A stretch of 64,000 nucleotides of DNA. It comes from Voacanga thouarsii. Its lineage: Eukaryota > Streptophyta > Magnoliopsida > Gentianales > Apocynaceae. The notes beneath the pieces are model-generated. The model saw only the letters and a program-made list of their open reading frames with translations, ran no database searches and was not told where the DNA came from. Position 1 is the stretch's first letter; every line of letters starts with the position of its first letter. Shown here one piece after another: positions 21,161 to 62,917 of this stretch. The position numbers and the translations under genes are program-made. The stretch spans positions 496,001 through 560,000 of the forward strand of contig JANUWF010001937.1 in NCBI GenBank assembly GCA_026120185.1. The letters are read 5' to 3'.

Positions 21161-21210
21161 AATTACTTTATCCATTCATAGATGATCACTCGCATTTTGG
21201 TAATATTTAC

Positions 21211-21609
21211 TTGATAATGAGCAAGTCTGATTCCTTTGATATATTTAAGGAGTTTAAGGCTGAGGTGAAGCGTCAAACAAGTAAACTAATTAAAAAGCTA
21301 AAATCAGATCGTGGTGGAGAATATTTCCTTAGTGAATTCAAAGACTACTTGGCACATCAAGGTATAGTATCTCAACTAACTGTACTTGGGATTTCCCAGA
21401 AGAATGGAATAGCTGAGAGAAGAAATAGAACATTGATGGAAATGGTCAAAAGCATAATAAGTCATGCAACTATTCCTATTTCTTTTTGGGGATATGCTCT
21501 GGAAATAACAGCATATATTCTGAACTTGGTGTCTTCCAAGCCAGTGCATAGGACACGCTATGAGATGTGGATTGGACGAAAGCCCAGTATGAATCATCTC
21601 AAAGTATAG
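21211..21609 (+). pseudogene. Copia-2 integrase core
   Basis: A 132-codon open stretch carries 'LKSDRGGEYF' (second catalytic aspartate) and 'NGIAERRNRTLMEMV' (catalytic glutamate), then the conserved 'FWGYALEITAYILN'. The first catalytic aspartate lies upstream in another frame (21100-21120), so no complete integrase is made. Unlike copia-3, the catalytic glutamate is retained. Confidence 0.8.
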
Positions 21610-21663
21610 AGTTGTCCAACTTATGTACTAACTAAAGAAAGTAAGCTAGACCCAAGATTAAAA

Positions 21664-22646: not shown

Positions 22647-22859
22647 TTTAGCATGAAGGATATGTGAAAAGCTAGCTACATTCTTGGTACTAAGCTTCTT
22701 AGAGATATGAAATAAAGAATGTTAAGCTTATCCCAATCAACATATATTGACAAGATACTGGCTAGGTTTAGCATAGATCAGTGCAAAAAGGCAATCATAC
22801 CCTTTAGGTACAGATTAACCTTATTTTTCAAGTAGTGTCCTAAGACACAGGAAGAAAAT

Positions 22860-24973: not shown

Positions 24974-25039
24974 TAAGCCTAAGTAAGTCCGTAGGTACCC
25001 ACCGCTATGGTGTCTAAATATCTCTTGAAGACTCTCTCA

Positions 25040-26085: not shown

Positions 26086-27492
26086 CTACTTAAGTCCAAA
26101 AATAGACTTCTTAAGCTTGCAAACCATATGCTCTTGGCATTTAGCAATAAAGCCTTCTGGTTGGGACATATAGATGTCTTCACTAAGATGGCCATTTAAA
26201 AATACTGTCTTGACATCCATTTTCCATATCACGTAGTCATAATGACACGCGATGGCAAGGAGGATACGGATGGACTTAAGTATGGCTACCGGGGAAAAGG
26301 TTTCCTCATAGTCGATTCCCTTTTTCTGAGTATACCATTTCGCCACAAGCCTAACTTTGAAAGTTTCCACCTTCTCATCTACTCTCCTCTTTCTCTTGTA
26401 TACCCACTTACACCCTATGGGTTTTATCCCTTCAGGTGAAGCTACAAGATTCCAAACCTGATTGAGATACATAGACTCAATCTCAGCTTTCATTGCTTCG
26501 TGCCACAAATTTGCATCGACATTAGCAATAGCCTCCTCGTATCTAGTGGGGTCTTGTTCCTGATGGTCGGAGACCAGCTCGAAAGCTTCTCTAGTCCATC
26601 TCTCTGGAACCCTAGACACTCTCCCACTACGACGAGGCTCCATTTGTACAGGCTCTTGAGGTTGTACCTCTTCTTGTTTCACAATCGGGTCAGAAGAAGT
26701 TGCTTCCGAAGATAACTTCTCCTCCAGTTTCAACCTAGTTGAACCTTTCGTGGAAGTACTTTGATCATCCTCTAAGTATCTAGCATTGGTACTAACTAGT
26801 ACTTTCTGCTCCTTAGGATGATAAAAGTAACCACCATTTGTCCCTTTTGGATACCCAACAAAATAGCATAATTCTGATCTTAGTTCCAACTTGTCTCCCT
26901 TGACTAGTACATAAGTTGGATAACTCCATATCCTGAGATGATTCAGACTTGGCTTACTCCCAATCCACATTTCATAAGGAGTCCTAAGTACTGACTTGGA
27001 AGGCACCGAATTCAGAATATATGCCGCTATTTCCAAGGCATATCCCCAAAAAGACACTGGAAGAGTAGCATGAGACATCATGCTTCGGACCATTTCCATC
27101 AATGTCCTGTTCCTTCTCTTAGCTACTCCATTCTGCTGAGGTGTTCCTAGCGCAGAGAGCCGGGATGCTATCCTATGATGTACCATGTAGTCCTTAAATT
27201 CACCAAGGAGGTACTTTTTACCACGATCCGATCGTAAGGTCTTGATCAATTTACCTGTCTGATGCTCCACTTCAGCCTTAAACTCTTTGAACTTGTCAAA
27301 AAAGTCAGACTTACGTCTCATCAGGTAAACGTAACCAAACCTTGTACAATCATCAGTGAAAGTGATGAAGTACTCAAAACCTCCTCTACCTGGTATAGAC
27401 AGGGGACCACATATATTAGTGTGAACAAGACTCAATACCTCCTTGGCTCTATTTACCTTAGGGGCAAATGACCTTTTAATCATTTTTCCCAT
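26086..27492 (-). pseudogene. Copia-3 integrase and N-terminal reverse transcriptase (468-codon open stretch)
   Basis: This is the longest open frame in the window. It starts inside the integrase: 'LSLVHTNICGPLSIPGRGGF' has asparagine where the first catalytic aspartate of copia integrases sits, 'LRSDRGKKYLLG' has the second, and 'QQNGVAKRRNRTLMEMV' has lysine in place of the catalytic glutamate. The conserved 'FWGYALEIAAYILNSVPSKS' and the GKGRR-type linker follow, then reverse transcriptase fingers ('CKWVYKRKRRVDEKVETFKV', 'SIRILLAIACHYDYVIWKMD'). It stops at the palm. Two of three integrase catalytic residues are lost, so it cannot integrate DNA despite the long frame. Confidence 0.88.
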
Positions 27493-27669
27493 CAGGTAAG
27501 ACTCACACTAAGGCCAATTTTTCAATCTCAATGAGTCCAAAGGCCCATCATGGATCAACCTCTGAATACTGGTTGAGTTAATATTCTCCAACCTTAGATG
27601 TCAAATATAAGAGTCATTGACATTAGTCTTTCTCTTCCTTGTTAAAGGTTCAGATCGAGCGTTATTTAA

Positions 27670-28605
27670 TTAATTGTTAATAGGGTTTAAGAAAAATAGA
27701 TTCCCATACATGTGCCCAGTACATAAAATTTCTCCATCTCTACTGATAGAAATACCAGAATGGAAAGATACAGAATATCCTTGATTTATTAGTTTTGCAA
27801 TCGAAATCAAATTCTGTCTAAATCCAGGTACATATAAAATATCTTTCAAAACCACTATTTTATTACAATCAAATACAAGATCCAACTCCCCCATTGCAAG
27901 GGCCCAAACTTGTGCTCCATTTCTCACACGTAGTCTATGTTTGCCCTTCTGGAGTCTTTTAATCTTTCTAAACCCCTGCAAGGAGTTACAGATGTGATCA
28001 GTGGCTCCTGAATCAACAATCCAAGTGGAAGTTGATCCAACCATTAATATGAACTCTAGATAGAAAACATTACCTGTGGGGTTTTTCTTGGCTTGAAGAT
28101 TTGGACACTCCTTTTTCCAGTGTCCCTTCAGTCCACACTTGAAGCACTTGCCCTTGGGTTTGTCTTTGAGCTGGGTCTTGGGCTGGACCGCTGCGTTCCA
28201 CTTCTTCTTCTTGAACTTTCTGGTCTTGGGCCCAATTCTAGAAGATGAAGCCTTAGCAATCATAGCCTTAGATTGTGGCTTTATAACCTTCTCCACCATT
28301 TGGAGCTCCTTCATCAACTCAGTCAAACCCATGTTCAACTTGTTCATGTTATAATTCAACTTGAACTGAGTAAAGGAACCCAGTAGAGATTCGAGAACCA
28401 TGTCCACTTGGCTCTCAGGGTCAATAACAACTCCTATGATTTCTACCTCCTCGAAAGCAGCAATCATCTTGAGCATATGCTCTCTGACTGATACTCCCTC
28501 AGCCATCTTAGTGTTAATGATGGTTCGAAGAGCCTCCTGCCTTGTGGGCCGACTCTTATCCGTGAACATCATGGCTAATGATTGAGTTATGTCATACGCA
28601 GTGAT
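27670..28605 (-). pseudogene. Copia-3 gag C-terminal part and protease
   Basis: An open stretch of about 312 codons on the minus strand. Gag (UBN2-type) reads 'ITAYDITQSLAMMFTDKSRP' onward. A complete CCHC zinc knuckle 'CFKCGLKGHWKKEC' follows a lysine-rich segment, then the protease 'WIVDSGATDHICNS' with the DSGAT active site. The apparent ATG at its right end lies in the CATGT target duplication. It is not a true start: the gag frame continues into 33002-33223 across the solo LTR. Confidence 0.88.
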
Positions 28606-30214
28606 CATGTTGTAACACCCTGCTACCTAGGCCCGCCAGGGCCAGGGATGTCGCCCCGTCTAAAGGATAAGGGGTCTTTATAACTAGGACACACAAATAT
28701 AATAGCGGAAATAAAATGATACTTCAACTTAAAATTTATTACAACCCAAAAAAAATAATAATAAATCCAAGAATACTCAAAACAAATCCATAATAAAAAT
28801 TCATCCGCTCTCAGCTCTCCCAACATTACACAAAATAAATCCTCAGAAAATTCTTCCAAAGTAGACAATATATAGCTACTCATGCCCACAGCAGGATGGA
28901 CTTGAAATCATGATAAAATGGTGGTGAGACAGAAATCTCAGTAAGTCCGTGTGTACTTCGGGTGTTTAGTGAAAACAGTTCGTGGATGCAAAGTGTGAAA
29001 CCTTTATAAGAGAAATACAGGCAAGCAATAACATTAATTAAAAACAAGAGTGGCATTTTGGCTTTTCCAGCCATACATAAGTAATAAAATCAACCACTCG
29101 AAAGAAAGGGATATGGGTTACCACACGTTGGGCCCCATAACCGGTCAGAATGCCAACGCTTTGTGTAGACTGACAAAAGTAGGTGATCGGCCTACTAGGC
29201 AAGATACTCCTCCTTCTCTATACCCAAACAACAACCGGGTGTCCATTCCGGCAAACCACAGTCACTTGACTGAAAACAAACTGCTAGCTCGGACCGGCAC
29301 GACTCACTGGACTGACATCTTATCCGGGAAGGACTCACCCCTCAGAGGTGGCCACCTACTGAGAGACTTACCCTAACCCTTCAAAGACTAGTCCTAGTAG
29401 TCCACCCTTATTGAGTACTCAACGACGTTTCCGACTTGGGATAAAATGAACAAAACACTATTCCACATGAAAATGGCAATTTATTAGTATTCCAAAGTCT
29501 TTAACAAAATCAGTTTTAGAAAGAGTTTGAGTTTGAGTAAATCTGCTCATTGGCTTTTAAATAATTCAAATGTTTGAAATAAGAAATGATTTAACCCTCA
29601 ATTGCCTTTACATAAATGAGTGTCCAAGCACTCTACACTTGGCTTGCCATAATAAACATTTTGCATCGAACAGGTTTTATGCAGGAGCTTACCTGATTCT
29701 TGCTCACAATAACAAGGTCTCCAACGGCAAACCTAACCCCACATGGGCAAATACAAATCACAATCAATTTCAAGCCACAAACTACTTCCTTAATTTTAAA
29801 TCGACTCAACTTAGTACTACCATGATCCTAATATCCCAAGCTTTAAGGTTAAACAATAAGTAAATAGGTTTAAGAGTTGAGCCTAGCACAATTATTTAAA
29901 ATAATTAATGGTTTGGGAAATAAATTTAATAAGTTGAAAGCTTAAATCTTGTTAGGGAAAATTTAGAGTTTATTTGATCAAGAGTTCTAGGTAGTATTAA
30001 ATAAAATATTGATTTATTAATAATTTAGTTGTTAGAAAATAATTGGTAGCTAAAATTAGTTGAAAATAAATTTAATGAGTCTCACTTGAACAATGTTAAA
30101 TAAATTCTTAAGGAGTTTTGATTAGAAGATAATAGCTATATTTTTAGTAATATATATTCTACTAATTGTAATTATTTTCATAAAGGCTTTAATTGATCTC
30201 ATTATATTAAGTAA

Positions 30215-39559: not shown

Positions 39560-40621
39560 TATTAAAACTTGTGTGTATGTAGGGCACAAGACTTGAATTT
39601 TCTTATCCGTGCAACATCCGCATCAAATGGTTACAAGACATTAATTATTGCTAAACTGAATAGATCTCTCCCAACTTCTCCCTTTAATAAAGCGGTGGGA
39701 AATTTCTATGGAATGCAAATTGTTGTAAGAATGTTACTCCAAAAATTTGACACTTTCTTTGGACGGCTTGTGATGATATTTTTCCTAAAAAGAGTAACAT
39801 TGCTAAGAAAATGGATTTTGATGAACAGTGTTCCCGTTGTGGCCATTCATGTGAAATTGATCACCATGCTTTGTTTGAGTGCTCATAGTCAAAGAAACTT
39901 TGGTCCTCAATGAGGTTTGGGCCAAGGATTCTTCACTTCCTAGTAGTCTCCTTTGCTGACTTATTAACCTTTGTATTGTTTTTGCTCCACGAGATGCTGC
40001 TGAGTTTTGTGTGTTTTCTTTGTTATGTTGGACTACTAGAAATTGCCAAATCTTTGAATTTATTGTGCCAACAGTGAATTCTCTACTTCATATGGGTGTT
40101 GTTGTGTTGGATGATTTTGGGGCCTCTTCATGCTAAGCTAGTTTAGCACCTTCTATTTGCCCTTTTGCTTTGTGGTCGCCGCAATATATAGGTTTCATTA
40201 AAGCTACCTCTTGCTTACATGCTTCAGCTACGGTTGGTGTTGTTTTGCGTGATTCTTCTGGTTACGTTCTTAGTGCTATGTCTACTAGAATTCCCCCTGT
40301 TGATATGGCAGCGCATGCCCTGCTTCTTGCCATCAGGTGGGCTGCCATGAATCAATATAGGAGAGTTATCTTGGAGGGTGACTGCCTTAGTCTTATTAAT
40401 AAGGTTAATTCTAAGGGTCCAGATTTCTCACCCTGTGGACATATCATAAGTGTCATTAAGGATATGTTGCATGTATTTGACTCTTTTGATGTCTTGTTTA
40501 TCCATCATGAAGGGAATGTGCCTAATCACTTATTGGCCCACAAAGACTTATCTTCGTCTATTCCTTTAGAATGGTATAATAATCTCCCTTCTGATGTACT
40601 ATTGGCCGTTATAGTTGATTT
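39560..40621 (+). pseudogene. LINE 3' end: zf-RVT region and RNase H domain
   Basis: Around 39700-39900, reading across frames, the pattern W-K-x-L-W, 'HFLWTACDDIFPKKSNIAKK' and 'CSRCGHSCEIDHHALFECS' is the zinc-binding zf-RVT segment that follows reverse transcriptase in plant non-LTR elements. An open 150-codon stretch (40170-40621) is an RNase H-like domain (RVT_3 type): 'TVGVVLRDSSGYVL', 'HALLLAIRWAAMN', 'VILEGDCLSLINKV', 'LFIHHEGNVPNHLLAH'. It is cut at 40621 by the young copia element; its end and a poly(A) tail lie at 45828-45871. Confidence 0.8.
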
Positions 40622-40988
40622 TGTTATGAATTATTGGAATCTCCATTAATTAGTGGAGGCTCCACTAATTATGGATTTATGTGAATTATTAGAAGATTTT
40701 TATGGATGTCCACCATTTAGTGGAGACACCATTAATTGAGATTAGTTGAATATGATGTATGCAATGATGTATTCCACTAATTAGAGCTCTATAAATAGAG
40801 CTATTCTCTAAGCTTGTAATACACCATCATTTTGTGAAAGAAAGATTAGTGAAAGAAAGATTAGAGAAAGAATTGTGAGAGAAAGAAAGAGAGAAGTTTG
40901 AAGAGAAATTCTTGTGCAAAGAATAGTTAGAATTTTCTTAGTGTGTAGTGTGTAGATTTTATTCTAACACTACCCTAATTTTATAACA
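40622..40988 (+). repeat. 5' LTR of the RKD-carrying copia element
   Basis: 367 bp. It contains inverted motifs (TCCATTAATTAGTGGA), a TATAAATAG box at 40790-40798 and a tandem 'gtgaaagaaagattag' doublet. Identical by eye to 45461-45827. Confidence 0.95.
40790..40798 (+). promoter_or_regulatory. LTR TATA box
   Basis: TATAAATAG in the 5' LTR; the 3' LTR has the same at 45629-45637. It would start the element's genomic RNA about 30 bp downstream, near 'aagcttgtaatacacc'. Confidence 0.65.
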
Positions 40989-41005
40989 CGTTATCAGCAC
41001 GAGTC
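40989..41005 (+). other. Primer-binding region of the RKD-carrying copia element
   Basis: 'cgttatcagcacgagtc' directly follows the LTR end. Its position fits a primer-binding site; I have not identified the tRNA. Confidence 0.5.
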
Positions 41006-41029
41006 TCTGCCGTTATTAAAGCCAGAAGA

Positions 41030-41650
41030 CAGGTACGCATTTATTGATCTCGCTAAATTCGAATTTGTAGCCCTTGATATTTCTGAAAAAAAAAATTTAT
41101 ATGTCATACAGAAATGCATCTAAATACTAAAAAAAAAAGGAGATCCATATGTCATGTGGATAAAAAAAAAAAAAAAAAAAAAGATTTGACCACCTGAAGA
41201 TGGTCGTACTACCCACTGCACGGTATGAATGGTTGCACCTGAAGTTGCAAGATTGTAAAACCGTGAACTCCGTGATGTATAAAACTACATCTTAGTTAAA
41301 AATTTTACGGAGAAAAAGTTATCGATGAAGTTATATTGGAGAAGACATTCTCCATTTTTCATGTTCTACAAGAATAATATCGATAAAAAGGGTATCCAAA
41401 ATTGACAGCTCTAACATGAGTTATTATTGAGAAATCATGAAGCCAGATGAACTGGCTCAACAGCACTCCGGAAGTGAATGTTGTTGGCTCCAGCAGAAGC
41501 CATCGTTATAGTCGTAGTTGTGGCAGTGGCCGTGGTTATGGTCATGGACACACTCGATATTTCCCTTATCACGAGAAATACCGCCACCGAAGTGGAACAG
41601 AAAAGATAATAAGGGAAAAAGATATTTCCATTAATAATAAGCATCACATC
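41030..41650 (+). pseudogene. Copia gag remnant of the RKD-carrying element
   Basis: The gag N-terminus is visible as 'DLAKFEFVALDIS' (about 41049-41086). It is followed by A-rich insertions and a jump (internal deletion) to 'HLKMVVLPTARYEWLHLKLQ' near 41190, then 'KPDELAQQHSGSE' and an Arg/Gly-rich stretch (41447-41620, 'RSCGSGRGYGHGHTRY'). The zinc knuckle that should come next is missing because the captured RKD segment starts about here. Frameshifts and stops prevent a functional Gag. Confidence 0.78.
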
Positions 41651-41661
41651 TTTTATTCATA

Positions 41662-43059
41662 TCAATAGTGTTCATATGAACTTGATGATACATGCTTATA
41701 GTTGCTCTTTTGTAATTGAGCTGACAAATGTAAGATGAAGGTTTGTAATTGTTCTTTTTCAATATTTACATTAGAGGATGACAAACAATTAGTAATTATG
41801 GACTTCAACTCCTCTTTTTCGACATCCTCCTCCTTTTCTTTCCCCTTTGAGCCAGCATCGAGACTAGTAGCAGGATTAGCCGTAAAATTACTGCGAAATG
41901 AGTCTTGAGATTTTATGATCTCCTTAAGTTTATTATATTTCTTATTATATTTGGCCTTGAAGCATGCTTGTCTCAATTTCTGTGTTTGGTCCTCTAACTG
42001 CGTATTAGGACTTTCTTCCACCAAATGTTTTTCACATTCTAGTATCGCAATGGCTTCTTGTAATTTCTTCTCAGCCATATGTCCTCCTTCTTCTTTATTT
42101 TGCATATCCTGTAAATCGAAGTGATATCATCGGTTATTTACTTATAAATCTTTCATAGTTTCATACTTGCAAATTATAAGTATGTATGAGAGAGAACCTG
42201 AACATTCTTAATTATGGTCTCCAAGCTCACCAACTTCCTGTGAGACCATCGACGAATTCCTAACTCCCTACATCTTTTCTTGAGACAGGTTATGCCAATA
42301 TTCAATTCTTTGGCTGCGCTCTTGATTGGTAGGTAAAAGTATTGAGAAATTGTTTCTCTTGATAGTGTCTGGGAGTTATTGCCCTTCTTCTCTCTCTGCC
42401 TCTTAATCATCTTCTTCTCCCCAAGAATTTTGTCTGCAATAATATCTTGAACTTCGATATTATGCATTTCATGAGTACTTACTCCGACTTCGTTGTCAAG
42501 ACCACTCATTATTTCTCCTAGAAAAATAAAATAATATAAGTAAAGGTAATACCATTCAAAATCCATGTTTAAATAGATAATAACCTGGAATCATATTCTG
42601 ACTTTGTTCAAAATCCATTAGAGAATAGAATGGATCATGCACAAGCATATCCTCATTCAAAGGAATAGCATCAAGAGGAACAGTATCAAAAGCAGTCTTT
42701 TGTAGGGGTAGATCAACTTGGTCCAAAGCAGTATGTTCAAAACTTCCACTGATTTACATCAAAAACAAACCAAAAGAGAGTTTAATTTCATTATCAAGCA
42801 CACTAAAAACAAATGGAAGCCATTAAAGGTATCTCACCTGAAATTAGGAGGAAGTGGTTGGTTTGGAAAGGAAAATATATCAAAATCTTCTGCGTTCGAA
42901 TTAGACAGAAGCGGTTGGTTTGAAAAGGAAAACATATCAAAATCTTCTGTGTTCGAATTAGGCAAAAGCGGTTGGTTTGGAAATGAAAATACATCAACAT
43001 CTCGTCGTAGAAACTAAGTCAAAATTTGACCATGTCTCAAATGAATTACGAGTCTCCAT
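41662..43059 (-). pseudogene. RKD: Captured RKD-type (RWP-RK) transcription factor gene, nearly intact
   Basis: Four exons on the minus strand: 43059-42838, 42748-42585, 42517-42198 and 42108-41662 (stop TGA). The three introns (89, 67, 89 bp) all have GT-AG ends. Exon 3 holds the RWP-RK DNA-binding domain: 'ISQYFYLPIKSAAKELNIGI', 'CLKKRCRELGI' and the signature RWSHRK, where serine replaces the usual proline. Exon 4 continues with the RKD C-terminal helix ('LEDQTQKLRQACFKAKY'). Exon 1 has a frameshift near 43000: ATG at 43059 leads to a stop after about 21 codons. From the in-frame ATG at 42935 the spliced frame is open for 342 codons. RKD proteins control egg-cell and early-embryo programmes. 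It lies antisense inside a copia element; whether it is expressed is unknown. I call it a pseudogene because of the shift, but it may be functional. Confidence 0.85.
42838..42989 (-). repeat. 57-bp coding tandem repeat in RKD exon 1
   Basis: Two full units (42989-42933, 42932-42876) and a partial third (42875-42838) encode the repeated peptide FSF(P/S)NQPLL(P/S)NSN(T/A)EDFD(M/I). The period is 19 codons, so changes in copy number keep the frame. Confidence 0.85.
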
Positions 43060-43331
43060 ATCTGCTTTGTGATTTTTGTTTTTGATGTTTACTAATGACT
43101 GATAACTGAGATATATATCGATACATACATATATATATATATATATATATCTGTATGAAGAAGAAGAAGAGGTAGATGGTAGGTAGAGGGTCGGAGGAGA
43201 AGAAAAGACAAGAGAGGAAGATGAAAAGTCGGTACCGGGAAGAGTGAAAAAAAAATAGATATTTTTCTTGGCATTTCCTGCTTGTCATCATTTTCTTATA
43301 TTTCTTTTCTTATTCTCTTGTGAAATCATTA
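43060..43331 (-). promoter_or_regulatory. Captured upstream DNA of the RKD gene
   Basis: About 250 bp between the first RKD ATG and the point where copia sequence resumes (43332). It contains a (TA)n run (43129-43150) and, on the minus strand, pyrimidine-rich sequence (about 43151-43250), typical of plant core promoters and leaders. It is neither copia coding nor RKD coding. A promoter role is inferred. Confidence 0.45.
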
Positions 43332-44815
43332 TTCCCTAAATTAAGGGGAGAACAGAAACAGTACAAGAAAGATCGTAATTGGACAACATCATTAAATTAT
43401 CTTGATCCGCATACAAGCGCATGTGAACTTGAAGTTCAAAAGATAATTCATTTGTAAAGCATTGCAAATCAAATGCCAGACGCTTTTGTTGACTCTAGAA
43501 GAGTAACAAAATCGCATATGCCAGCTATAAATGCTCCTATTCGAATTGAAGTTCCAGCAGAACAAAATATTATACCTATAGCTGCTGAGCCAAAAGCATG
43601 CCGTAAGCATGGTCGACCTCTTGGTTCTAAAGATAAAAATCCTCGAAAGAAAAGAGGATTAAATGATCCGAAGATCATATTGAAGAAAAGAATGATAAAG
43701 ACCAAGAGAGAACTCGATGACAAAGAACTAGAAGTTGATGAAAGTAACACCGAAATTTCTATCAATTATACCACTTCGGTAGAAGTTGGAATCGGATAGA
43801 AACCGTTATTGATGATATATTTGCATACAATATATCTCTTGATGTTACACAGGATAATGATGATCCCGAACCAATATCGCTTGATGAATGTCGGCATAGA
43901 AAAGATTGGCTGCAATGGAAAGATGCGATTCAATCGGAGTTAAATGCACCGACAAAACGTGAAGTCTTCGGACCTGCAGTCCGAATACCGTAAGGTGTAA
44001 AACCCGTTGGCTACAAATGGATATTTGTGTGAAAGCGCAATGAAAAGAGTGAAATCGTTCGATATAAAGCGCGATTAGTAGCCCAAGGTTTTTCACAAAG
44101 ACCAGGTATTGACTATGATGAAACTTATTCTCCCGTTGTTGATGCTATTACACTCCGATATCTTATCGGTTTGGCAAGACATGAAAAGATAGATATGCGC
44201 CTATTAGATGTTGTCACTCGCTTACTTGTATGGAAATTTAGAAAATGATGTTTACATGAAAATCCCCGAAGGATTTCATATGCCCGAAGCATATAAACAT
44301 TATCCTCGTGAAAATTACTCCATCAAGTTGCGTAAATCATTATATGGCCTCGAAGCAATCTGGGCGCATGTGGTTCACACGTCTTAGTGAATATTTATTG
44401 AAAGCGGGATTTAAAAATGACCAGGTATGTCCATGCGTTTTTATTAAGAAATCTGGTTCTAAATTTGTGATATTAGCTATATATGTTGATGATATTAATC
44501 TTATTGGAACTCCTGAAGAGCTCCAAGAAACAATTGATTATTTAAAAAGAGAATTCGAAATCAAGGATTTTGGTAAAACCAAAATTTGCCTTGGTTTACA
44601 AATTGAACATTTGGAGAGTGGAACATTTATTCATCAATCAACATATACAAGCAAAAGTGCTAAAAAGATTTTACATGGACAAAGCACATCCATTGAGTAT
44701 TCCAATGATCGTCCGATCATTAAATGTGGATAAAGATCCTTTCCGACCTCAAGAAAATGATGAAGAACTCCTTGGTCCTCGAAGTACCATATCTCAAGTG
44801 CAATTGGTGCATTGA
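43332..44815 (+). pseudogene. Integrase tail and reverse transcriptase of the RKD-carrying copia
   Basis: Copia sequence resumes with 'FPKLRGEQKQYKKDRNW' (43332 on) and 'LDPHTSACELEVQKIIHL', the integrase C-terminal region. The open stretch 43473-43799 has the linker ending in a GRPLGSKDKNPRKK basic motif. Reverse transcriptase starts near 43890 ('WLQWKDAIQSELNAP') and continues through 'RYKARLVAQGFSQRPGIDYD', with shifts near 43990 and 44215. It contains 'AIYVDDINLIGTPEE' with an intact YVDD at about 44476-44500. Several stops make it non-functional. Confidence 0.85.
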
Positions 44816-45336
44816 TGTATCTTGCTAATAACACACGGCCTGATATTGCTTTCGCTGTCAATTTATTAGCAAGATTTAGTTCTTCACCAACACGACGACA
44901 TTGGAATGGAATTAAACAAGTCCTTCGATATCTCCAAGCTACTTCTTCATATCATGCTGAAATTATAGCCATTCATGAAGCAAGTCGAGAATGTGTATGG
45001 CTAAGATCCATGATTCATTATATCCGAGAAAGTTGTGGATTATCATCAATCAAAGGTATTCCAACTCCTCTTTATGAAGACAATGCAGCTTGCATAGCTC
45101 AATTACGAGGAGGATATATTAAAAGAGATCGGACAAAACATATTTCACCAAAATTCTTCTTTACTCATGAACTCCAGAAGAAATGTGAAATTGATGTGCT
45201 ACAAATTCGGTCATGTGATAACCTCGCAGATATTTTCACGAAGACTTTACCGACGGCAACATTTGAAAAGTTGAGATATAAAATCGGTATGCGTCGGTTT
45301 AAAAATTTAAAGGAATCATCTCATCAGGGGGAGTAA
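44812..45336 (+). pseudogene. RNase H of the RKD-carrying copia, internally deleted
   Basis: The 174-codon open stretch starts at 'YLANNTRPDIAFAVNLLARF' and jumps from 'RYLQATS' straight to 'SYHAEIIAIHEASRECVWL'. In copia elements several dozen residues lie between these blocks, so the central part of RNase H is deleted. The C-terminal half is complete ('YEDNAACIAQLRGGYIKRDR', 'NLADIFTKTLPTATFEKL') up to the stop. Confidence 0.82.
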
Positions 45337-45447
45337 TAAACATACATATAGAATAGTGTACTCTTTTTCCTTCACTAGATTTTTTTTCCCACTGGGTTTT
45401 TATCTAGTAAGGTTTTAACGAGACATATTCTTTATGTATGGATGGAC

Positions 45448-45460
45448 ATCCAAGGGGGAG
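45448..45460 (+). other. Polypurine tract of the RKD-carrying copia
   Basis: 'atccaagggggag' immediately before the 3' LTR start TGTTATG. Confidence 0.8.
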
Positions 45461-45827
45461 TGTTATGAATTATTGGAATCTCCATTAATTAGTGGAGGCT
45501 CCACTAATTATGGATTTATGTGAATTATTAGAAGATTTTTATGGATGTCCACCATTTAGTGGAGACACCATTAATTGAGATTAGTTGAATATGATGTATG
45601 CAATGATGTATTCCACTAATTAGAGCTCTATAAATAGAGCTATTCTCTAAGCTTGTAATACACCATCATTTTGTGAAAGAAAGATTAGTGAAAGAAAGAT
45701 TAGAGAAAGAATTGTGAGAGAAAGAAAGAGAGAAGTTTGAAGAGAAATTCTTGTGCAAAGAATAGTTAGAATTTTCTTAGTGTGTAGTGTGTAGATTTTA
45801 TTCTAACACTACCCTAATTTTATAACA
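45461..45827 (+). repeat. 3' LTR of the RKD-carrying copia element
   Basis: 367 bp, identical by eye to 40622-40988; followed by the GATTT duplication. Confidence 0.95.
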
Positions 45828-45871
45828 GATTTTTCATTTTAATGATAATTTTCTTTTCCCTCAAAAAAAAA
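45828..45871 (+). mobile_element. LINE 3' tail with poly(A)
   Basis: Continues the LINE RNase H frame from 40621 after one GATTT copy, then ends in a 10-base A run (about 45862-45871). This is the poly(A) end of the non-LTR element. Confidence 0.65.
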
Positions 45872-50183: not shown

Positions 50184-50383
50184 GGTTCCTTCTCTGCCTG
50201 AAATTTGCACCACGATAGCTCTTTCATCATTCACGTCCGATACTCTTCCCAAGCCTTTGGAGTTCTGCATTTCAGAAGCCAAAAGGTACATTAATTATGC
50301 TGCCTTTGATAACCATGTAATTATGGCATCATCCATCAAATTGCAGACACACGAACAGTAATATATGTGTTCTTTCAGCAAAA

Positions 50384-51919
50384 ATGTGGAAGCTAAAGAT
50401 TGCAGAAGGCGATGGACCTTGGCTTACAACCACGAATAATCACATCGGACGCCAGCACTGGGAGTTTGATCCTCACGCTGGAACTCCCCAAGAACGAGCT
50501 GAGGTCGAAAGACTGCGTGAAGAATTCACCAAGAACAGATTCAGAATCAAGCAAAGTTCTGATCTTCTCATGCGTATGCAGGTAGAACACTATCTAAGCC
50601 ACAAAGCCCTTTCTCCTATAACACACAACCAATATTGTCTCACAATGAATTATGATTGATTCTTTAAACCAAACCATAGTATATTCACTTTTCGATCAGC
50701 TGCACTAGTGCAATTCCGGTGGTACATATGTTGTCATGCGTGAACATTTAGAGAGCTCTCTCTCAACTTTCCGTGTGTTTCAATAGCCCTTTTTGAGTTA
50801 CTTTCTTTCAGGGCATATTCTTAATCATTTGAAATAGGCAACTTTTAATTTCTTTTAAATAAAAATGTGTTTAGTTTGGTTCATGCTTACCTTTTTATTT
50901 AGAAAACTTGAAAAGAAACAGCTTGGACAAGCAACCCTAGCTACGGTTTTATTTGAAACAAATTTTGCTTATCGATGCTCTAATATTGCTTTAAAAGAGA
51001 TAGTTTTAATTCAAGTTAAAATTGAAGGTTGCTTTTAAGTGGTTTCAATTTCTTCTATTTTTCATTTTTCCTTTCCAAGAGGTGAAAAAGTAGCTTCGGG
51101 TAAGCAACCCTAAATATCCTTTCCAAGACTACATTGGTTTACCACTATTTTTTAAATAAAAAATATTATGTTAATTTGTGAAACAACTTTTCCCCTACAC
51201 ATATTTTTCATATGCTTACTAGAACTACAAACACTAAAATCAAGAAGGTTTATATTAATTTTGATCAATAAAAAAGAATAGTACCATTAAAATAATGAGT
51301 TGAATAGATCGAGAGACAAAATATATAAGAAAATTTATTATTATCTTACTAATTAATAATATCGTCAATCATATTTATATTTTATATATTTGTTTTATAC
51401 AAACAGTTAACTTGCGTGTTTGGATACAACGGATTTCCAATGTTTGGTTTATATTAGTGGATTTATATATAAGCCTTTTCTTAAGACACAATGCCAAATC
51501 TCATTTTGCATTTATATCCCTCAACCACAAAGCCGGTGAGACAGACCAAGTGAAACTTTCCCTTATTGGATCGACCTTATGGTGAGTTTAGGGGTAGATC
51601 TTTTCTTCTCTTTCTTTTTTTTTTTTTTTTACGGAAAGATTGTCCTGCCTTGTATATAGAAGGGGAAAAATTAGAAGTCAAGTTTGTATAACGTTATCTT
51701 CTTACACGGGTTATGCATGTCATTAGACATTTTTTCAAAAAAAAAAATAGAAATCGGGAATAAACAAAATAGAACACTCGAAAGCGCGGTCCATGAGCCT
51801 ATTGATCGGATTCCTCCTCACTAGCGTATGATCGTTCCAATAATTTGGGATAATAATTTTATTTTATATCTTTTAAAAGAATATAAATTAAATTTTAAAG
51901 TATATATGTTATCTGTGAT

Positions 51920-51969
<50 letters not shown>

Positions 51970-54900
51970 TCATAATTTCGAGTGAGCATACTAGTTTATG
52001 TAATTTTTGAAAAAAAAATTCAAAATTTTTAAACCACATTAGTTTTAAACAGAAAAAAAAAAAAAGAAAAAGTGGCGATTTTTTAATCTTGGGCAACCAG
52101 GATTGTATGAAAGCGACTGAAACACACAAAGTAGAATTCGATTGAGACATGTTAGTATAAGGAGATTTTTGTCTGACCCCTTCATTTGTCCTCTAAAAAA
52201 TAAACTGAAAAATATACTTTTTTTTTGGGTGGGTGGGGCGGGGAGGGGGGGGGTTTGGGGGGCGTGGGTTCTGATCAAACTATTAACTATCCTTCATGCT
52301 AATTTGAAACGATCAATCCGGTCAAATTCTTAACTGAGGTCAAGCTTGCTGCATTTGTTTTTCAGTATTTCTATTTTTTGCAAGAAGGGCGTGAGACCTC
52401 CTTTTTAATAGTGATATTCTTATTATATATGCATTGACAAATTACAAGACAAATTTAATGTTGTAAGTGTTTCTCTAATAAAAAGATGTTATGTTCTTTA
52501 TATTTTGAATCTGTAAATTCATTACCATGAAATGTCTCCAATAATATTCTCATATTGAAGGGAAACTACTTTCTGTCATTTTCAATGATGACTATGAGGG
52601 AAGTGTTGTTGGCAAACACAGTGTTAAAAGGGGTAGTATATTATGTACTCAATACATACTAATATTGTAGATGTTTATAATATTATACTCTATAATATTG
52701 TGCATAGTGTGCAATATATATACTCTATAATATACATTTTAGATAGAGATGGAATTATAACTTTAAACTTGGGAAGACAGGATTATTGAAAGAAAAAGAT
52801 AGAAGGCAATGTTATAATTTTTTAAAAAAAATTTAATAGGTAAAAAGTAAATTTATATAGATTTTTTTAAAATACAATTTTTTTAAAAAAAGAAATAAGT
52901 TATTTTGTAGGGCATGGGGGTTGAATGCCACCCATTCCTTTCCTCCAAAATCCGTTCTAGATTGTAATATGTACCAACCATTTTTAGCAATTAAAGTCTC
53001 AACAGCTACTGCCTGCTCCCTTCAACAATTGATAATGTTTGAATGACACCTGTTATCAAAGCTTTACTAATTTATTTATTCCCAATAAAAAAAAATGAAT
53101 CCAAATTTTCACGCTTTTATTTTATTTTTTAAAATTTTGTTCTCACAGCTGAGAAAGGAAAACCCATGTTGTCCAATTCCACCCCAAGTACAAGTCCAAG
53201 ACAACGAAGAAATTAAAGAGGAGGCCGTGACAACTACTCTTAGACGGGCCATTGGTTTTTACTCAACCATTCAGGCCCATGATGGACATTGGCCCGCCGA
53301 ATCTGCTGGACCACTATTTTTCCTCCCTCCACTAGTAAGCCTAACCCAATAACGATTTTTTTTTTTTTAAGGAAAAACAGAAAAGAAATTGATTACCACA
53401 ACAAGCCTTTTCCTTTTTTTTTTCTTTTTAATTTATGAAGCTAATAATTTTAAATCCCATATGATTTACAGGTTATGGCCTTGTATATTACGGGAGCAAT
53501 GAATACTATTCTAACACTAACACATCAAACAGAGATTAAACGATATATATATAATCATCAGGTTCGAATCAAAATTAATTATTAATTTTTTTTATATTGA
53601 TTAAGGAAAAATAGATTACATTTTTCAAGTTGTCTTCTTTGGATAGAATGAAGATGGAGGTTGGGGATTACACATAGAAGGCCACAGTACCATATTTGGT
53701 TCTTGTTTTAGCTACATTATTTTAAGGCTGCTAGGAGACGGGCCTGATGGCGGCGAGGATGGTGCCGTGGCCAAAGGCCGCAAATGGATTCTTGACCATG
53801 GTGGTGCTGTTGGAATACCATCATGGGGAAAGTTTTGGCTAACGGTAAAGTACTCCAAGATTGATATCTCGCATTTGTTTTTAACTATTTATCAATTCTT
53901 TTTATATGATTAGAATGAATTAGTGACATGGTAGTGATCAGTAAGCGAGTAAGCAAATATAACGTGAAAGTAGATAAAGTATTGTTTTTTCTTCTTTTGC
54001 TTTCCTTTGTTTCCTGCATTTTCTTTGACGATTTAATTAATCATTTTTTTGATGTATACAGGTTCTTGGGTTATATGAATGGGATGGCTGCAACCCCATG
54101 CCTCCAGAGTTCTGGCTGCTTCCGAAAATTTCCCCTATTCATCCAGGTTTTCTTAATGCACATTTCACAGGCTGATGCTAATCAGTTCTCTATTGATATT
54201 TTTGTTCTGCAACGAAATATGAATTAGAGCTGAAAAATCTGTATAATTCTTGTAATTTGTTTATTATATATGCAGGAAAAATGTTGTGTTATTGTCGCTT
54301 GGTTTATATGCCAATGTCATATTTATATGGGAAGAGATTCGTTGGACCGATAACAGGGCTGGTGCGATCTCTGAGACAAGAGCTGTATGTGCAACCTTAT
54401 CATGAAATCAATTGGAACAAAGCAAGAAACACCTGTGCCAAGGTTAGCTAAATTGATCATTCTATTTTAATGTTCCGTTTTTTCTTTTATTACAGCAAAG
54501 GTCAATCTTGAATATTTTCAAGCATTCCATCTCTGAGTTATTGGATAAATGGGTAGCCTGTAATTTGTGTTGTTTATCTGTTGTTGATATCAGGAGGATC
54601 TATACTACCCTCATCCTTTAGCGCAAGATATGCTCTGGGGATTCCTTCATCATTTTGCTGAGCCGATTCTGATGCGATGGCCATTTAAATCACTGAGAGA
54701 AAAGGCATTGAAGAAAGCAATGGAACATGTCCATTATGAGGACGAAAACAGCAGATATATGTGCATTGGATGCGTCGAAAAGGTATTGCAGAAATGAATT
54801 TGAATTGCTCATGAAAAGTATGACAAAAGGCATTCACAAAATTTGGCCTAATGCAGGTGCTTTGCCTGATTGCTTGCTGGGTGGAAGATCCTAATTCAGA

Positions 54901-57176
54901 TGCATACAAACGCCATCTTGCTCGTATACCTGATTACTTTTGGCTAGCTGAAGATGGATTGAAAATGCAGGTGATTCTATTCTCCAACCTATGCTTACGT
55001 GCCAATTTCTGGTTTCTCGTGTTTTTATCTTTGAGAGGAACTGTGAGGACAAGTATGGATGAGTTTCGTAAATGTCTGATATTTTTAGAGAAACTCTGCC
55101 CTCTCCTAGGACTAGAGCTATTTCTTACTGTAATAATCTTGGAAGTCTAAAAAATCACATATTTGATACTAAAATTTGCTGCAGAGTTTTGGCTGCCAAT
55201 CGTGGGATGCAACCTTTGCAATTCAAGCAATCTTATCAAGTAATCTTGCAGAGGAGTATGTGCCTACGCTGAAAAAGGCACATGAATTCATAAAAGCATC
55301 ACAGGTACAACGATATATCAGATAATGAAGAAAATACATAATAAGAGAAGCATGAAGTACTCCTAAAACTCATATTCCTTCATGCATTCAGGTTCGTGAA
55401 AACCCTTCAGGTAACTTCAGTGAAATGTATCGGCATATGTCTAAGGGTGCCTGGACTTTTGCAATGCAAGATCATGGTTGGCAAGTCTCCGATTGCACTG
55501 CTGAAGGACTAAAGGTAAACCTTCAATGCAGGTTTATTGTGGTGACTTCGTGTATTGTCAAGCATTATTCACTGGTTTTTCCTACCATTCCATGTTTTAT
55601 TTGCAGTGTGCGCTCTTATTTGCGCAAATGGCTCCTGAACTTTTTGGGGAAAAATCTGAAACTGAGCGTTTTTACGACGCAGTCAATGTTATTTTGTCTC
55701 TACAGGTATAACCTGATCATTCCTGATCATCTCAATCAAATTTGAAAGTCAATTTCTAGGATCCCCAATTCTTGCATATTTCCTTTGTCTCAGAAACCAG
55801 CATTTAACTTGCTTTTTTGAACTCAAATACAGAGTCCAAATGGTGGTTTTCCAGCATGGGAGCCTCAACGAGCATTTCGATGGATAGAGGTAACTGATTT
55901 TAGCCCATAAATTGCTTCAGTTTTCACATTCAATAGCAGATCTCTTAACTTGTTCCTCATTATTTCAGAAATTCAACCCTACCGAGTTTTTTGAAGATGT
56001 TCTAATCGAACGAGAGTAAATATTCCTCACTTTCTCCCCCTCTCAACATCCCAAAGAGTACCCTTTTTACATTGTAGAAAATCATAGATCACTGAACCTG
56101 ATTTTACATTCCAGGTATGTGGAATGCACTTCGTCAGCAATTCAAGGTCTAGCACTCTTCAAGAAGTGGCATCCAAACTACCGGAGAAAGGAAATAGAGA
56201 GCTGCATTTCTAGAGCACTAAAATACATTGAAGATGCACAAGAACCAGATGGCTCATGGTCTGCTTTCCATCATTGATGATTTCTGATTTCAAGCGATCT
56301 TATTCATCAATATTCTGGAATGAATACTAGCCATAAAGATTAATTTGAAGATTTGATTGCTCACAGGACTGGTAGCTGGGGGATTTGTTATACCTATGGA
56401 ACATGGTTTGCAGTGGAGGGGTTGGTTGCCTGTGGTAAAACCTATCAAAACTCTCCTACCCTGAGAAAGACATGTCAATTTTTGCTGTCAAAACAATTAC
56501 CTGATGGTGGATGGGGAGAGAGTTACCTTTCAAGTGCAAACAAGGTAAAATTTCATTTCACGGGACAGCGGTGAAAGTTTTATTTTTAGTTTTCTGCCTT
56601 CTTACTTCTTGTTCAATTTATATCGACTACTTATCGTAATAGGTGTACACTAATCTGGAAGGAAACAAATCAAATCTGGTGCAGACCTCATGGGCTCTGT
56701 TAGCTCTTATTGATGCTGGCCAGGTTAGTCCACCTCTTAAGAGGTCTACTTCACAAGCTTGAGGCATACCTTGATAAAATTTTAGAGAATTAAAAAAAAA
56801 AAAAAACCCCTTCAACCTTATAATAGAAGTCAGTTCAATAATTTCCAAAAGAAAATTCACACCTTAATTTCATTATTCTTTTTTTTTCTCTCTAAAGGCC
56901 GAGGTTGATCCAACACCAATACATCGCGGGATAAGATTGTTAATAAATTCCCAAGAAAGAGATGGAGACTTCCCTCAACAGGTATGTTATAAATTTTTTT
57001 ATTATTATTTGGAGATTAATATAACTGAATATATTCATATTATAAATACTTTATATTCTTTACAGGAAATTACGGGAGTATTCATGAAGAATTGTACCTT
57101 AAACTATTCCTCTTATAGAAACATATTCCCGATTTGGGCTCTCGGTGAATATCGTGGACGTATTCTCCTTCCATAA
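50384..57176 (+). CDS. LUS: Oxidosqualene cyclase, lupeol synthase-like, 18 exons, intact
   Basis: Cyclises 2,3-oxidosqualene to a pentacyclic triterpene, most likely lupeol, at the ER membrane. Exons: 50384-50581, 53149-53334, 53472-53561, 53647-53844, 54062-54146, 54276-54442, 54594-54782, 54857-54970, 55185-55304, 55392-55514, 55607-55705, 55833-55889, 55969-56015, 56115-56258, 56367-56544, 56643-56723, 56898-56981, 57066-57176. All introns are GT-AG and the joined frame is 756 codons, the usual length of plant cyclases. The start MWKLKIAEG is the family start. The catalytic DCTAE has its acid Asp at residue 483. MLCYCR has Leu256, where beta-amyrin synthases have Trp. QW-type repeats include DGHW (111-114), EDGGWG and PDGGWG (about 651-656). 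DGSW-Y is DGSW-T here (Thr607). No frameshift or stop. Product specificity is inferred from the MLCYCR signature; a mixed-product cyclase is possible. Confidence 0.95.
51923..51968. repeat. (TA)n microsatellite in cyclase intron 1
   Basis: About 22 TA units. Confidence 0.9.
52227..52268 (+). repeat. G-rich tract, G-quadruplex candidate, in cyclase intron 1
   Basis: At least six runs of three or more G separated by one to three bases ('gggtgggtggggcgggga' and on). On the transcribed pre-mRNA this strand is the sense RNA, so an RNA quadruplex is possible. Confidence 0.7.
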
Positions 57177-60181: not shown

Positions 60182-62917
60182 ATTTCTCACTTGTACTAAG
60201 ACCAATTTGACATAAATCATAATCCCATTGATCCAGTATGACTATTATGTTTAGACGATGGGAGAGGCTTTATCATTGGATCTGCAACATTGTCATCAAT
60301 TGATACCTTGCATACTTTTACATCTCCTCTATCAACAATTTCTCAAATAAGATGAAAACATCTAACTATATGTTTGGATCGTTGATGTGATCTTGGTTCC
60401 TTAGTTTGTGCAATGGCTTCATTGTTGTCACAATAAAGTTCCACTGGGTTCACAATACTAGGAACTACATCTAGTTCTATAATGAACTTTTTGATCCAAA
60501 CTGCTACTTTAGCTGCAGTTAAGGTAGCTACATACTCAACTTCTATAATAGAATCAGCCACAGTGTCTTGCTTTAAACTTTTCCAACTTTCAGCACCTCC
60601 ATTCAAACAAAATAGAAAATCTGGTTACGATCTGTAATCATCTATGTCGGACTGAAAACTAGCATCAGTGTAACTATTTACAACTAACTCGCCTTCTTGT
60701 CCTCCATAAATTAAGAACATATCTTTAATTCTTCTTAAGTACTTCAATATTTTCTTGACAGCAGTCTAGTGTGGCTCTCCAGGATTTGACTAGAAATTGC
60801 TCGTTATGCTTAATGCATATAAGACATCGGGTCGAGTACATAACATAGCATACATGATAGATTCTATAGCGGAAGCGTATGGTATCTTGTTCATGTGCTC
60901 TTCTTCTTCTTTCATGGAAAAAATTTGAGTTTTGCTGAGCTTAATGCTATGTGAAATTAATAAGAATCATCTCTTAAAGTCTTGCATACTAAACCTTTTC
61001 AGTACCTTGTCAACTTGCGCACTTTGACGTAAGCCAATTAGCTTTCTAGATCTTTCTCTATAGATCTGTACACTTAAAATATAGGTAGCTTCACCTAAAT
61101 CTTTCATTGAGAAACAATTTCCCATCCATGTCTTTAAACTTTGTATTGTTGGGATGTCATTTTCAATGAGTAAGATGTTATCAACATAAAGTACTAAAAA
61201 GATTATTGCATTCCCACTACTTTTCTTATAGACACAAGGCTCATCTTCATTTTTGATAAAGTTAATTCTTTAATTACTTCATCAAAATGAAGATTCCAGC
61301 TTCGAGATGCTTACTTCAATCCATAAATGGATCTTTAAAGCTTGCACACTTTATTAGAATTCAAAAGATCCTCAAAACCCTCAAGTTGTATTATGTACAC
61401 ATCCTCGAGTAAGTTTCTATTAAGGAACGCGATTTTGACATCCATTTGCCAAATGTCATAATCATAATATGCTGTTATGGTAAGAAGAATTCTAATAGAT
61501 TTAAGCATTACAACTGGTGAAAATATTTCATCATAGTTTATACCAAGAGTTTGTCTATAACCTTTTGCTACCAGTCGTGCTTTGTAACTATGCACATTTC
61601 CCTCCATGTCTATTTTCTTTTTGAAAACCCATTTACACCTAATGATTTTTTAACCTTTAGGTGGATTAACCAAAGTCCAGACTTGATTATCATACATGGA
61701 TTGCATCTTAGACTTCATAGCCTCTAGCCATTTTCCAGAGTCAAAACTCTTAATGGCTTCTTGATAGGAAGTGGGCTCATCATTAACCATGAGCTCCACA
61801 TTGTGATCATCAGTAATGAGGAATTCATATCTCTTAGATTGTTGACAAACCCAATCAGATCTGCAAGGTCCTTATTCTATAGAAGTAGGCTTATCTTGGA
61901 CTTATAAGCCATCTAATCGAGGTTCATTATTTTGTTCAGATACTAATTGTGGCTCTTAAATCTCATTAAGATGTATTTTACTCCAATTGATTCTTTTGGA
62001 AATAAATTCCTTTTCAAGAAAGAATCCATTTCGTGCAACAATTACTCTATTTTCTTTTGGGAGATAAAATTGATATCCTTTAGTTTCCTTAGGATACCAC
62101 ACAAATATGTATTTATCTGATTTGAGTGCAAGTTTATCAGACAATAGACGCTTTACATAAACTTCGCAACCCCAAATATTGAAAAATGACAAATTAGGTC
62201 ATCTCCCAGTCCATATCTCATATGGCTTTTTTTGAACCAATTTAGATAGAACCCGATTTAGTATGAATGCAGCAGTCTCTAGGGTAGAACCCCAAAAGGA
62301 GATTGGAAGATCAATTTGACTCATCATAGATCGAACCATATCTAAAAAAGTTCGATTTCTCAGTTCAAATACACCATTCCAGTAAGGTATTCCAGGTGGA
62401 GTTAATTGGGACATAATTCCACAATTCTTAAGATGCTCATCAAACTCGTGAATTAAATATTCACCACCTCGATATGATCGAAGTGTTTTGATACTTTTGC
62501 CAAGCTGATTTTGTACTTCATTTTGAAATTCTTTGAATTTTTGGAATGATTCAGATTTATGTTTCATCAGATATAGTTAGCCATATCTGCTAAAATCATC
62601 TGTAAATGTAATGATATACTAAAATCCTCCTTTAGCATGTGTATTCATTGTCTACATACATCAGTATGTATTAGGCCCAATAAATTAGTTGCCCTTTCAT
62701 TTTGTCCCTTAAAAGGTGCCTTAGTTATTTTTCCTAATAAACAAGAATAACATGTTTCGTAAGATTCTAAATCAAACAAATTAGAAGCTCATCATTATGA
62801 AGCCTTGTAATGTGTTTCTCATTTATATGGTCCAAACGACAATGCAGAATTAAGTCTAATTTAAATCGTTGGATTTCAATCTCTTAGTATTAATATTATA
62901 GATAGACTTGTTCAAAG
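60182..62917 (-). pseudogene. Copia-4 polyprotein relic (RNase H, reverse transcriptase, integrase)
   Basis: Minus-strand order from right to left: degraded pre-integrase (about 62650-62900), integrase at 62199-62567 ('KTLRSYRGGEYLIHEF', where the second catalytic aspartate has become tyrosine, and 'WNGVFELRNRTFLDMVRSMM', with the glutamate kept) and its C-terminal part at 61956-62192. Reverse transcriptase follows at 61335-61607 ('YKARLVAKGYRQTLGINYDE', 'SIRILLTITAYYDYDIWQMD') with a YVDN/YVDD-like block near 61170, then RNase H around 60343-60930 ('EVEYVATLTAAKVAVWIKKF', 'LYCDNNEAIAQTKEPRS'). Stops and shifts throughout. Gag and protease are missing because another LTR cuts in at 62918. Confidence 0.82.

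Follow-up and report, generated by a model that had tools for sequence, protein, structure and literature searches.

Bs1 of maize is non-autonomous, and we know of no gene cargo in ONSEN. In the passages of the papers cited here, Bs1 is described as carrying segments of three genes, none of them full length (PMC13317346), and ONSEN as a heat-activated copia element of Arabidopsis (PMC3907296). NLR and other genes are reported inside LTR retrotransposons of pepper, potato, tomato and rice, with about 72% of the LTR-borne NLRs in non-autonomous elements and 1398–3898 genes per genome, MADS-box factors included, lying inside LTR elements (PMC5664825). Grande, RIRE2, Retand and PvRetro13 are plant LTR retrotransposons for which antisense additional ORFs are described (PMC7264820), and promoter MITEs of the resident CitRKD1/CitRWP gene have been linked to its expression (PMC9671666). 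The open-licence literature that we searched on RKD or RWP-RK together with retrotransposons yielded no description of an RKD gene inside a retrotransposon.

The locus considered here (40622–45827) lies in a 64,000-nucleotide stretch of the Voacanga thouarsii genome, hereafter the window. It very probably represents a recent insertion by a non-autonomous Ty1/copia family whose cargo is a whole RKD gene, captured once and in antisense.

Architecture of the element and its genomic copies

The element is delimited by two plus-strand LTRs of 367 bp with TG...CA ends (40622–40988 and 45461–45827) that show 0 differences, and the target-site duplication GATTT directly adjoins them on the left (40617–40621) and on the right (45828–45832); an earlier note on this DNA had described both features correctly. 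The 5′ LTR contains neither CG nor CHG sites and includes TATAAATA at 40790–40797. Directly after it, on the plus strand, come a primer-binding-site-like stretch, CGTTATCAGCACGAG (40989–41003), and a leader with a copia gag remnant that ends just short of the zinc knuckle (41004–41620). A tRNA scan gave 0 matches, as did a search of viral_contigs with a leader pattern. The captured RKD segment occupies 41621–43328 on the minus strand and is followed, again on the plus strand, by the end of the integrase, a linker, a reverse transcriptase (RVT_2) and an RNase H remnant (43329–45336), and by the polypurine tract AAGGGGGAG (45452–45460).

With its paired TG..CA LTRs, 5-bp target-site duplication and copia-type reverse transcriptase, the element is a non-autonomous member of a Ty1/copia family; the integrase-before-RT order of copia is seen in a native sister element, L010, upstream of the RT half. 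The left-side remnant is degenerate and without a Pfam match, and it can be identified as gag, as the earlier note had it, because native sister copies run on from it into the zinc knuckle; its identity to them is 73–82% over the longer matched pieces. On the right, where integrase, reverse transcriptase and RNase H had been claimed, the reverse transcriptase and an RNase H remnant stand, but the integrase core is absent and replaced by the RKD segment. Copia sequence resumes there at ~43325–43331 with the integrase end and the linker to RT, and a Pfam scan of five right-hand pieces of the element found no integrase domain. The scanned window pieces likewise gave no Pfam match to a Gag zinc knuckle, protease or integrase, and RKD fills that interval. 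RVT_2 was matched in two pieces whose frames are broken (Pfam E 3e-14 and 7e-17), stops and frame changes occur in 43329–45336 as assembled, and the window element lacks ~57 aa of core RNase H sequence, as does L022 (17 copies aligned).

Searching the genome with the LTR gave 40 scored matches of 321 candidates, which resolve into 27 insertions: 15 RKD-bearing, 9 native sisters and 3 solo LTRs. As a count of LTR matches this is a lower bound, so that the genome holds at least 15 RKD-bearing insertions, in agreement with the earlier proposal that a copy of an RKD gene is travelling through it on a mobile element. The copies also lie at different sites, as that proposal called for: 11 of the 13 two-LTR RKD-bearing copies have exact 5-bp target-site duplications (10 different words) and the other two are off by one base. 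Comparison of the flanks of 18 copies revealed a single weak match, 62 bp at 77% between L016 and L036, and no convincing common flanks. LTR substitutions within the 13 two-LTR copies range from 0 to 8, with 0/367 in both the window element and L016. The window element is thus a recent insertion that moved as an LTR-bounded unit.

The RKD gene and its probable capture

RKD factors help define egg-cell and embryo identity. The gene in the window reads on the minus strand through exon 1 (42838–43059, with the native ATG at 43059), exon 2 (42585–42748), exon 3, which holds the RWP-RK domain (42198–42517), and exon 4, with an acidic RKD-type tail motif and the stop (41662–42108), separated by GT..AG introns of 89 bp (42749–42837), 67 bp (42518–42584) and 89 bp (42109–42197). 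The upstream stretch on the same strand (43060–43325) contains an AT-repeat TATA-like tract (~43123–43155), ~65–95 bp ahead of the ATG, as a possible core promoter. In exon 1, a 57-bp unit is present three times in the window copy (42842–43012) and in differing numbers in other copies. The apparent frame change near 43003, a site at which most copies read CTGCAGCAG, is likely a consensus error; in the open frame of the window copy the first in-frame ATG lies at 42935. Since the spliced RKD frame runs for 342 codons, compared with a longest open run of 122 in 2,000 base shuffles, and since the unit recurs at loci with other target duplications, it is not a product of chance.

Pfam recognised the RWP-RK domain on the minus strand with E values of 6.3e-20 (exon-3 frame) and 2.5e-19 (spliced protein), which, together with the acidic tail motif, bears out the minus-strand RWP-RK gene with an RKD C-terminal motif that the note had recognised. 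The W-S-N-F-like start and the acidic tail motif both occur as in RKD homologues. Among the 120 homologues listed, the best shares 45% identity over 91% of the query, and those with informative names are RKD-like or RWP-RK proteins, with one ‘Nin-like’ entry, many others being unnamed or hypothetical. Judged by its domain, the names of these listed matches and its terminal motifs, the predicted protein clearly belongs to the RKD subfamily of RWP-RK proteins and stands closer to it than to the NLPs. Its signature reads RWSHRK; of the 120 listed homologues, 119 have RWPHRK and one has RWPYRK. In a tree with 60 of those 120, the window RKD is placed among asterid sequences on a branch of 0.82 (median 0.23) and belongs to no starred set comprising half the rows or fewer. 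Comparison of the RKD protein with the PDB gave a best E of 0.99, and a viral_contigs search with it returned 46 pattern matches with 0 relatives. A lupeol-synthase-like gene was also noted, with matches at 85% at most; the best named matches of both genes are asterids.

The RKD segment begins at a left breakpoint of ~41612–41624 and ends at a right breakpoint of ~43325–43331. Read from the assembly, both junctions are alike in all 13 RKD-bearing copies compared, one of which (L014) has a short deletion across the right junction, and this concurrence argues for one capture. At the position of RKD, the native sisters, which have the same LTR and a matching RT half, carry gag-to-integrase sequence, so that the cargo stands in place of their gag zinc knuckle to integrase. 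Pieces of L010 match zf-CCHC (2e-5), gag_pre-integrs (5e-7) and rve (6e-8), and its interval has counterparts in all 8 remaining native copies, at 94–97% in L023, L030 and L031 and at 76% in L029. A search for short repeats at the junctions, which preceded knowledge of the breakpoints, found none longer than 8 bp. Intron loss was not seen: introns of 88–90, 67 and 89 bp are present in 13/13 copies, and in the junction alignment the 3′ end of RKD shows no poly(A) run, findings that led us to reject a spliced-mRNA retrogene. Capture may have proceeded by reverse transcription or by DNA repair, and we infer that the cargo was derived from a host gene.

We propose that a single antisense capture of RKD, with its four exons, three introns and TATA-like tract, replaced the gag zinc knuckle, protease and integrase, and that Gag, protease and integrase would come in trans from the native sisters. 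The antisense introns would stay unspliced in the genomic RNA of the element and, because RKD faces backwards, would persist every time the element is copied. Minus-strand transcription from the upstream sequence of the cargo could yield an RNA that is spliced to an RKD mRNA, splice sites permitting. This RKD-carrying family by itself suggests a simple rule, that antisense capture preserves introns and regulatory sequence through RNA-based copying, whereas retroduplication of spliced mRNA does not.

Condition and possible roles of the cargo

The lengths of the three introns are stable across the 13 copies (88–90, 67 and 89 bp, respectively), and the acceptor AG is present in 8/13, 12/13 and 11/13. 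An open 384-codon RKD frame is found in L018 and L024, each with one mutated acceptor (AA at intron 1 and at intron 2, respectively); as assembled, none of the 13 copies combines an open full frame with three canonical acceptors. Six copies are without nonsense codons, and the other seven, counting L026, whose one nonsense codon lies in the repeat block where the alignment is unsure, have 1–4 each. Seven of the 12 nonsense codons in total arise by a single C-to-T or G-to-A change. In L020, 45 nt of exon 2 are missing, and L025 lacks 10–11 nt in the repeat block. The signature reads RWPHRK in 6 of the 12 other aligned copies (L013, L016, L017, L018, L022 and L025) and RWPYRK in L024; in L014, L015, L019, L020 and L026 it is altered or interrupted as assembled.

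These nonsense codons, deletions and mutated acceptors, the loss of the P of RWP-RK from the window copy, and changes at 4–7 of 38 near-invariant domain columns (three copies tested) are consistent with a decaying passenger that has no effect, which we hold to be the case with slightly better than even confidence. Against such decay, short indels (1–2 nt) in the exons of the 13 copies, leaving aside the 57-bp repeat block, were seen at CHG sites and nowhere else. All 15 short-indel events in that part of the exons (31/31 cells) lie within 3 nt of a CHG, and CHG trinucleotides with their flanks make up 26% of RKD exon columns; the introns have 0/2 such events near CHG. For pol the figure is 57/69, with CHG and flanks at 29% of columns. 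Variants recur across unrelated copies. Because all 15 exon events occur at CHG, the apparent RKD frameshifts are probably consensus errors at what would be methylated CHG sites, and we no longer take the N-terminal frameshift and the many pol frameshifts as signs of decay. By way of warning, broken frames in repeats may, in assemblies of this kind, reflect consensus errors.

The cargo could instead act as a source of antisense or small RNA, with siRNAs that would silence either the element itself or the RKD gene of the host, a role that we consider possible but not probable. RKD lies antisense within the genomic RNA of the element, complementary to RKD mRNA, and the CHG-site error patterns hint at a CHG-methylated cargo. 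Captured sequences are described as siRNA reservoirs in the cited passages on maize (PMC13317346), and those on antisense transcripts propose the same role (PMC7264820).

That the element makes use of the RKD cargo, or that selection maintains it, with egg or early-embryo expression favouring germ-line transposition, appears unlikely. In the RKD frame, amino-acid changes are scarcer among shared than among private variants (0.25 vs 0.73, Fisher P 0.007), and the six copies without nonsense codons agree with such use. However, the pol control trends likewise (0.44 vs 1.04, P 0.006), shared RKD and shared pol variants do not separate (P 0.27), and masking of CHG-proximal codons leaves P 0.09 for the RKD contrast and P 0.24 for RKD against pol; the nonsense codons in 7/13 copies and the mutated acceptor in each open-frame copy weigh on the same side. 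It is more doubtful still that RKD produced from the antisense cargo biases transposition of the family in the egg or embryo, or that a dosage of at least 15 copies, or antisense RNA, shifts the reproductive programme of the host. Finally, although retained introns are what a DNA-level event would leave, entry of RKD into one copia copy after its insertion, as DNA repair filler or with another transposon and with nothing mobilised, is refuted by the same segment and junctions in 13/13 compared copies at unrelated sites, 11 of them with their own exact target-site duplications, and is given almost no credence here.

Comparison with described systems

A single antisense capture followed by multiplication remains our preferred account of the locus, which offers a datable natural case of a retrotransposon multiplying a transcription-factor gene that has introns and belongs to a reproductive family. 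Like Bs1, as far as the cited passages describe it, the element is an LTR retrotransposon with gene sequence, here probably transduced from a host; unlike Bs1, it carries, in at least 15 insertions, a whole transcription-factor gene that lies in antisense and has retained its introns. The pepper, potato, tomato and rice cases are similar in that a gene sits within a mostly non-autonomous LTR element, but in the cited account they read as captures of spliced mRNA with introns lost or reduced, whereas three introns are kept here and the gene is antisense (PMC5664825). With the Grande-type elements it shares an antisense gene in an LTR element, a possible promoter of its own and many copies. Their additional ORFs are described as lying between pol and the 3′ LTR with no clear cellular homologue (PMC7264820); the RKD cargo, in contrast, lies between gag and RT, replaces the zinc knuckle to integrase, and has clear RKD homology. 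CitRKD1/CitRWP is, in the cited passages, likewise an RKD gene tied to a transposon (PMC9671666), but here the retrotransposon itself carries and multiplies the RKD gene. The family thereby makes it possible to test whether transposon activity is linked to RKD dosage, an idea so far raised for resident RKD genes with promoter transposons.

An RKD gene inside a mobile copia element

The element at 40622–45827 is bounded by identical 367-bp LTRs (40622–40988 and 45461–45827) with GATTT on either side, as the earlier note had described, and has a polypurine tract and a PBS-like sequence at the due places. Pfam supports the reading of a minus-strand RWP-RK gene within a copia element, with an RWP-RK match on that strand and an RVT_2 match split into two pieces on the opposite, plus strand; the sole correction concerns the integrase placed at the right of the element, where the Pfam scan found no such domain. 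After removal of three GT-AG introns (89, 67 and 89 bp), the RKD frame runs for 342 codons from the ATG at 42935, versus a longest open run of 122 codons in 2,000 base shuffles; left unspliced, it reaches a stop after 33 codons. A protein search gave 500 relatives out of 2,559 candidates; among the best 120 of these, informative names are RKD-like or RWP-RK, many entries are unnamed, and the best match, from Fraxinus, has 45% identity.

A LINE-type RNase H (RVT_3) reading frame (40137–40649) comes to its end where the element lies. Elsewhere in the window are other copia remnants (15779–18958, 21163–22697, 25021–28626 and 60253–62576) and, at about 50381–57173, a lupeol-synthase-like oxidosqualene cyclase gene, 83–84% identical to those of Davidia, Nyssa, Cornus and Fraxinus.

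The 1.35-Gb assembly (1,848 contigs) was searched with the LTR, and the regions around the 40 scored matches (L-numbers; paired numbers denote one insertion) were compared piecewise with pieces of the window to class the insertions. Among these matches are 27 insertions: 15 with RKD (the window copy, L013–L020, L022, L024/L035, L025/L036, L026/L037, L027 and L032), nine native ones with gag-to-integrase sequence instead (L009–L012, L021, L023 and L029–L031) and three solo LTRs (L028, L033 and L034, the last two with exact target-site duplications). The 15 RKD insertions are a lower bound, as 281 of the 321 candidates were unscored. One RKD copy, L020, lacks nearly all of pol.

Both LTRs were retrieved for 13 RKD copies; 11 of these are flanked by exact 5-bp target-site duplications, in 10 different words (CATTT twice), and those of L019 and L020 have a one-base mismatch; with at least 15 RKD insertions, the claim that a mobile element is spreading RKD copies is upheld. 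When up to 250 bp on each side of 18 two-LTR copies were compared, the sole match between copies was 62 bp at 77% (L016 versus L036); in L018 a 21-bp stretch occurs in both of its flanks. The paired LTRs of the 13 RKD copies differ by 0–8 substitutions; the window copy and L016 both stand at 0/367. At 1.3e-8 substitutions per site and year, a rate from the available text of PMC5664825, zero differences date the window insertion to at most about 0.3 Myr (95%), or 0.6–1.6 Myr at slower rates. The window copy and L016 are not each other's nearest copies in cargo, and thus at least two lineages moved recently.

A single capture and its native sisters

Both breakpoints (left ~41612–41624, right ~43325–43331) are common to all 13 RKD copies, except that L014 has lost a short stretch spanning the right breakpoint and L026 has a gap immediately ahead of it; this argues for one capture. 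Cargo distance among these copies (mean 3.0%, maximum 4.1%, CHG-proximal columns left out) would place it at least about 1.1–1.6 Myr ago at 1.3e-8. Introns of 88–90, 67 and 89 bp are present in all 13. The gene could have been acquired through DNA repair or through template switching; spliced-mRNA retroduplication, as described in the available text of PMC5664825, differs in that here the introns are kept and the gene is antisense.

In the native copy L010, pieces of which were scanned with Pfam, the interval encodes a zinc knuckle, gag-pre-integrase and integrase, together with what we take to be a DSG protease-like motif, without a Pfam match. This interval matches all other native copies; that of the native-type L029 (C1030) is only 76% like L010, versus 94–97% for L023, L030 and L031. 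The RT half is 94–98% identical to the window in both native (L009–L012, L021) and RKD copies (L013–L019), whereas longer left internal pieces of native copies reach only 73–82%. This is a mosaic, perhaps from template switching, and the left-part pattern, including the mixed left parts of L014 and L015, suggests recombination between subfamilies. RKD copies are without the packaging and integration domains that their same-LTR sisters have, and so were likely mobilised in trans; with RKD antisense, the element's sense RNA would not present its splice sites.

State of the RKD gene and CHG sites

When the splice sites of the window copy are applied to all 13 copies, two of them, L018 and L024, have a 384-codon frame that is open throughout; they read AA at the intron-1 and intron-2 acceptors, respectively. 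The acceptor AG is kept in 8/13, 12/13 and 11/13 copies for introns 1, 2 and 3, and no copy of the 13, as assembled, combines the open full frame with three canonical acceptors. In four of the five copies whose intron-1 acceptor is changed, CAG, a CHG site, is replaced by CGA or CGC. Six copies have no nonsense codons and seven have 1–4 each, 12 in total, of which seven are single C-to-T or G-to-A changes; L020 is missing 45 nt of exon 2 and L025 10–11 nt in the repeat block. The number of 57-bp coding repeats in exon 1 (42842–43012) varies between copies. At 38 near-invariant RWP-RK columns the window copy departs at five, including P to S in RWP-RK itself, and L018 and L024 at four and seven; the 120 listed homologues have at most four departures, and 90 have none. 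Thus, the RKD gene is divergent in general.

Differences of 1–2 nt recur in unrelated copies at CAG, CTG, CCG and CGG (L009–L022 and L035–L037; pol half and cargo exons), and short indels outside the repeat block fall at CHG sites in 15 of 15 exonic events and neither of two intronic ones. We read these recurrent scrambles as errors of the consensus where CHG sites are methylated; the pattern hints that the cargo is CHG-methylated, and artefacts of this kind may account for many of the "broken" repeats in the assembly. The cargo and pol have 23–27 CHG per kb. The window LTR has no CG or CHG sites (mean 7.5 CHG in 2,000 dinucleotide shuffles, none reaching 0), and 30 of the 36 LTRs in 18 copies likewise have neither, the remaining six having one or two. 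Such a composition, reported also for ONSEN in the available text of PMC3907296, may help the family to escape maintenance methylation. Each LTR has a 25-bp palindrome with 12-bp arms, TAATTAGTGGAGGCTCCACTAATTA (40647–40671 and 45486–45510; partial second copy at 40717–40737), a possible regulatory site.

Nonsynonymous to synonymous variants per site were 0.73 (private) and 0.25 (shared; P 0.007) in RKD, and 1.04 and 0.44 (P 0.006) in pol of the RKD copies; shared variants did not differ between the two (P 0.27). Removing CHG-proximal codons gave 0.65 (private) and 0.22 (shared) in RKD (P 0.09), and 0.89 and 0.58, respectively, in pol (shared RKD versus shared pol, P 0.24). Pol has the same trend as RKD; we conclude nothing on selection.

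Comparison with known gene capture

Gene capture by LTR elements as such is already known: Bs1, Rider and others are well described (PMC13317346, available text), and in six genomes LTR elements are reported to harbour 1398–3898 genes (PMC5664825). According to the available text of PMC7264820, the usual orientation of transduced genes is that of gag-pol. Searches of open-licence literature turned up no description of RKD inside a retrotransposon. What is different here is the combination: a complete gene, antisense and with introns kept, replaces gag-to-integrase, there are many copies, the family has moved recently, and the cargo is an RKD gene.
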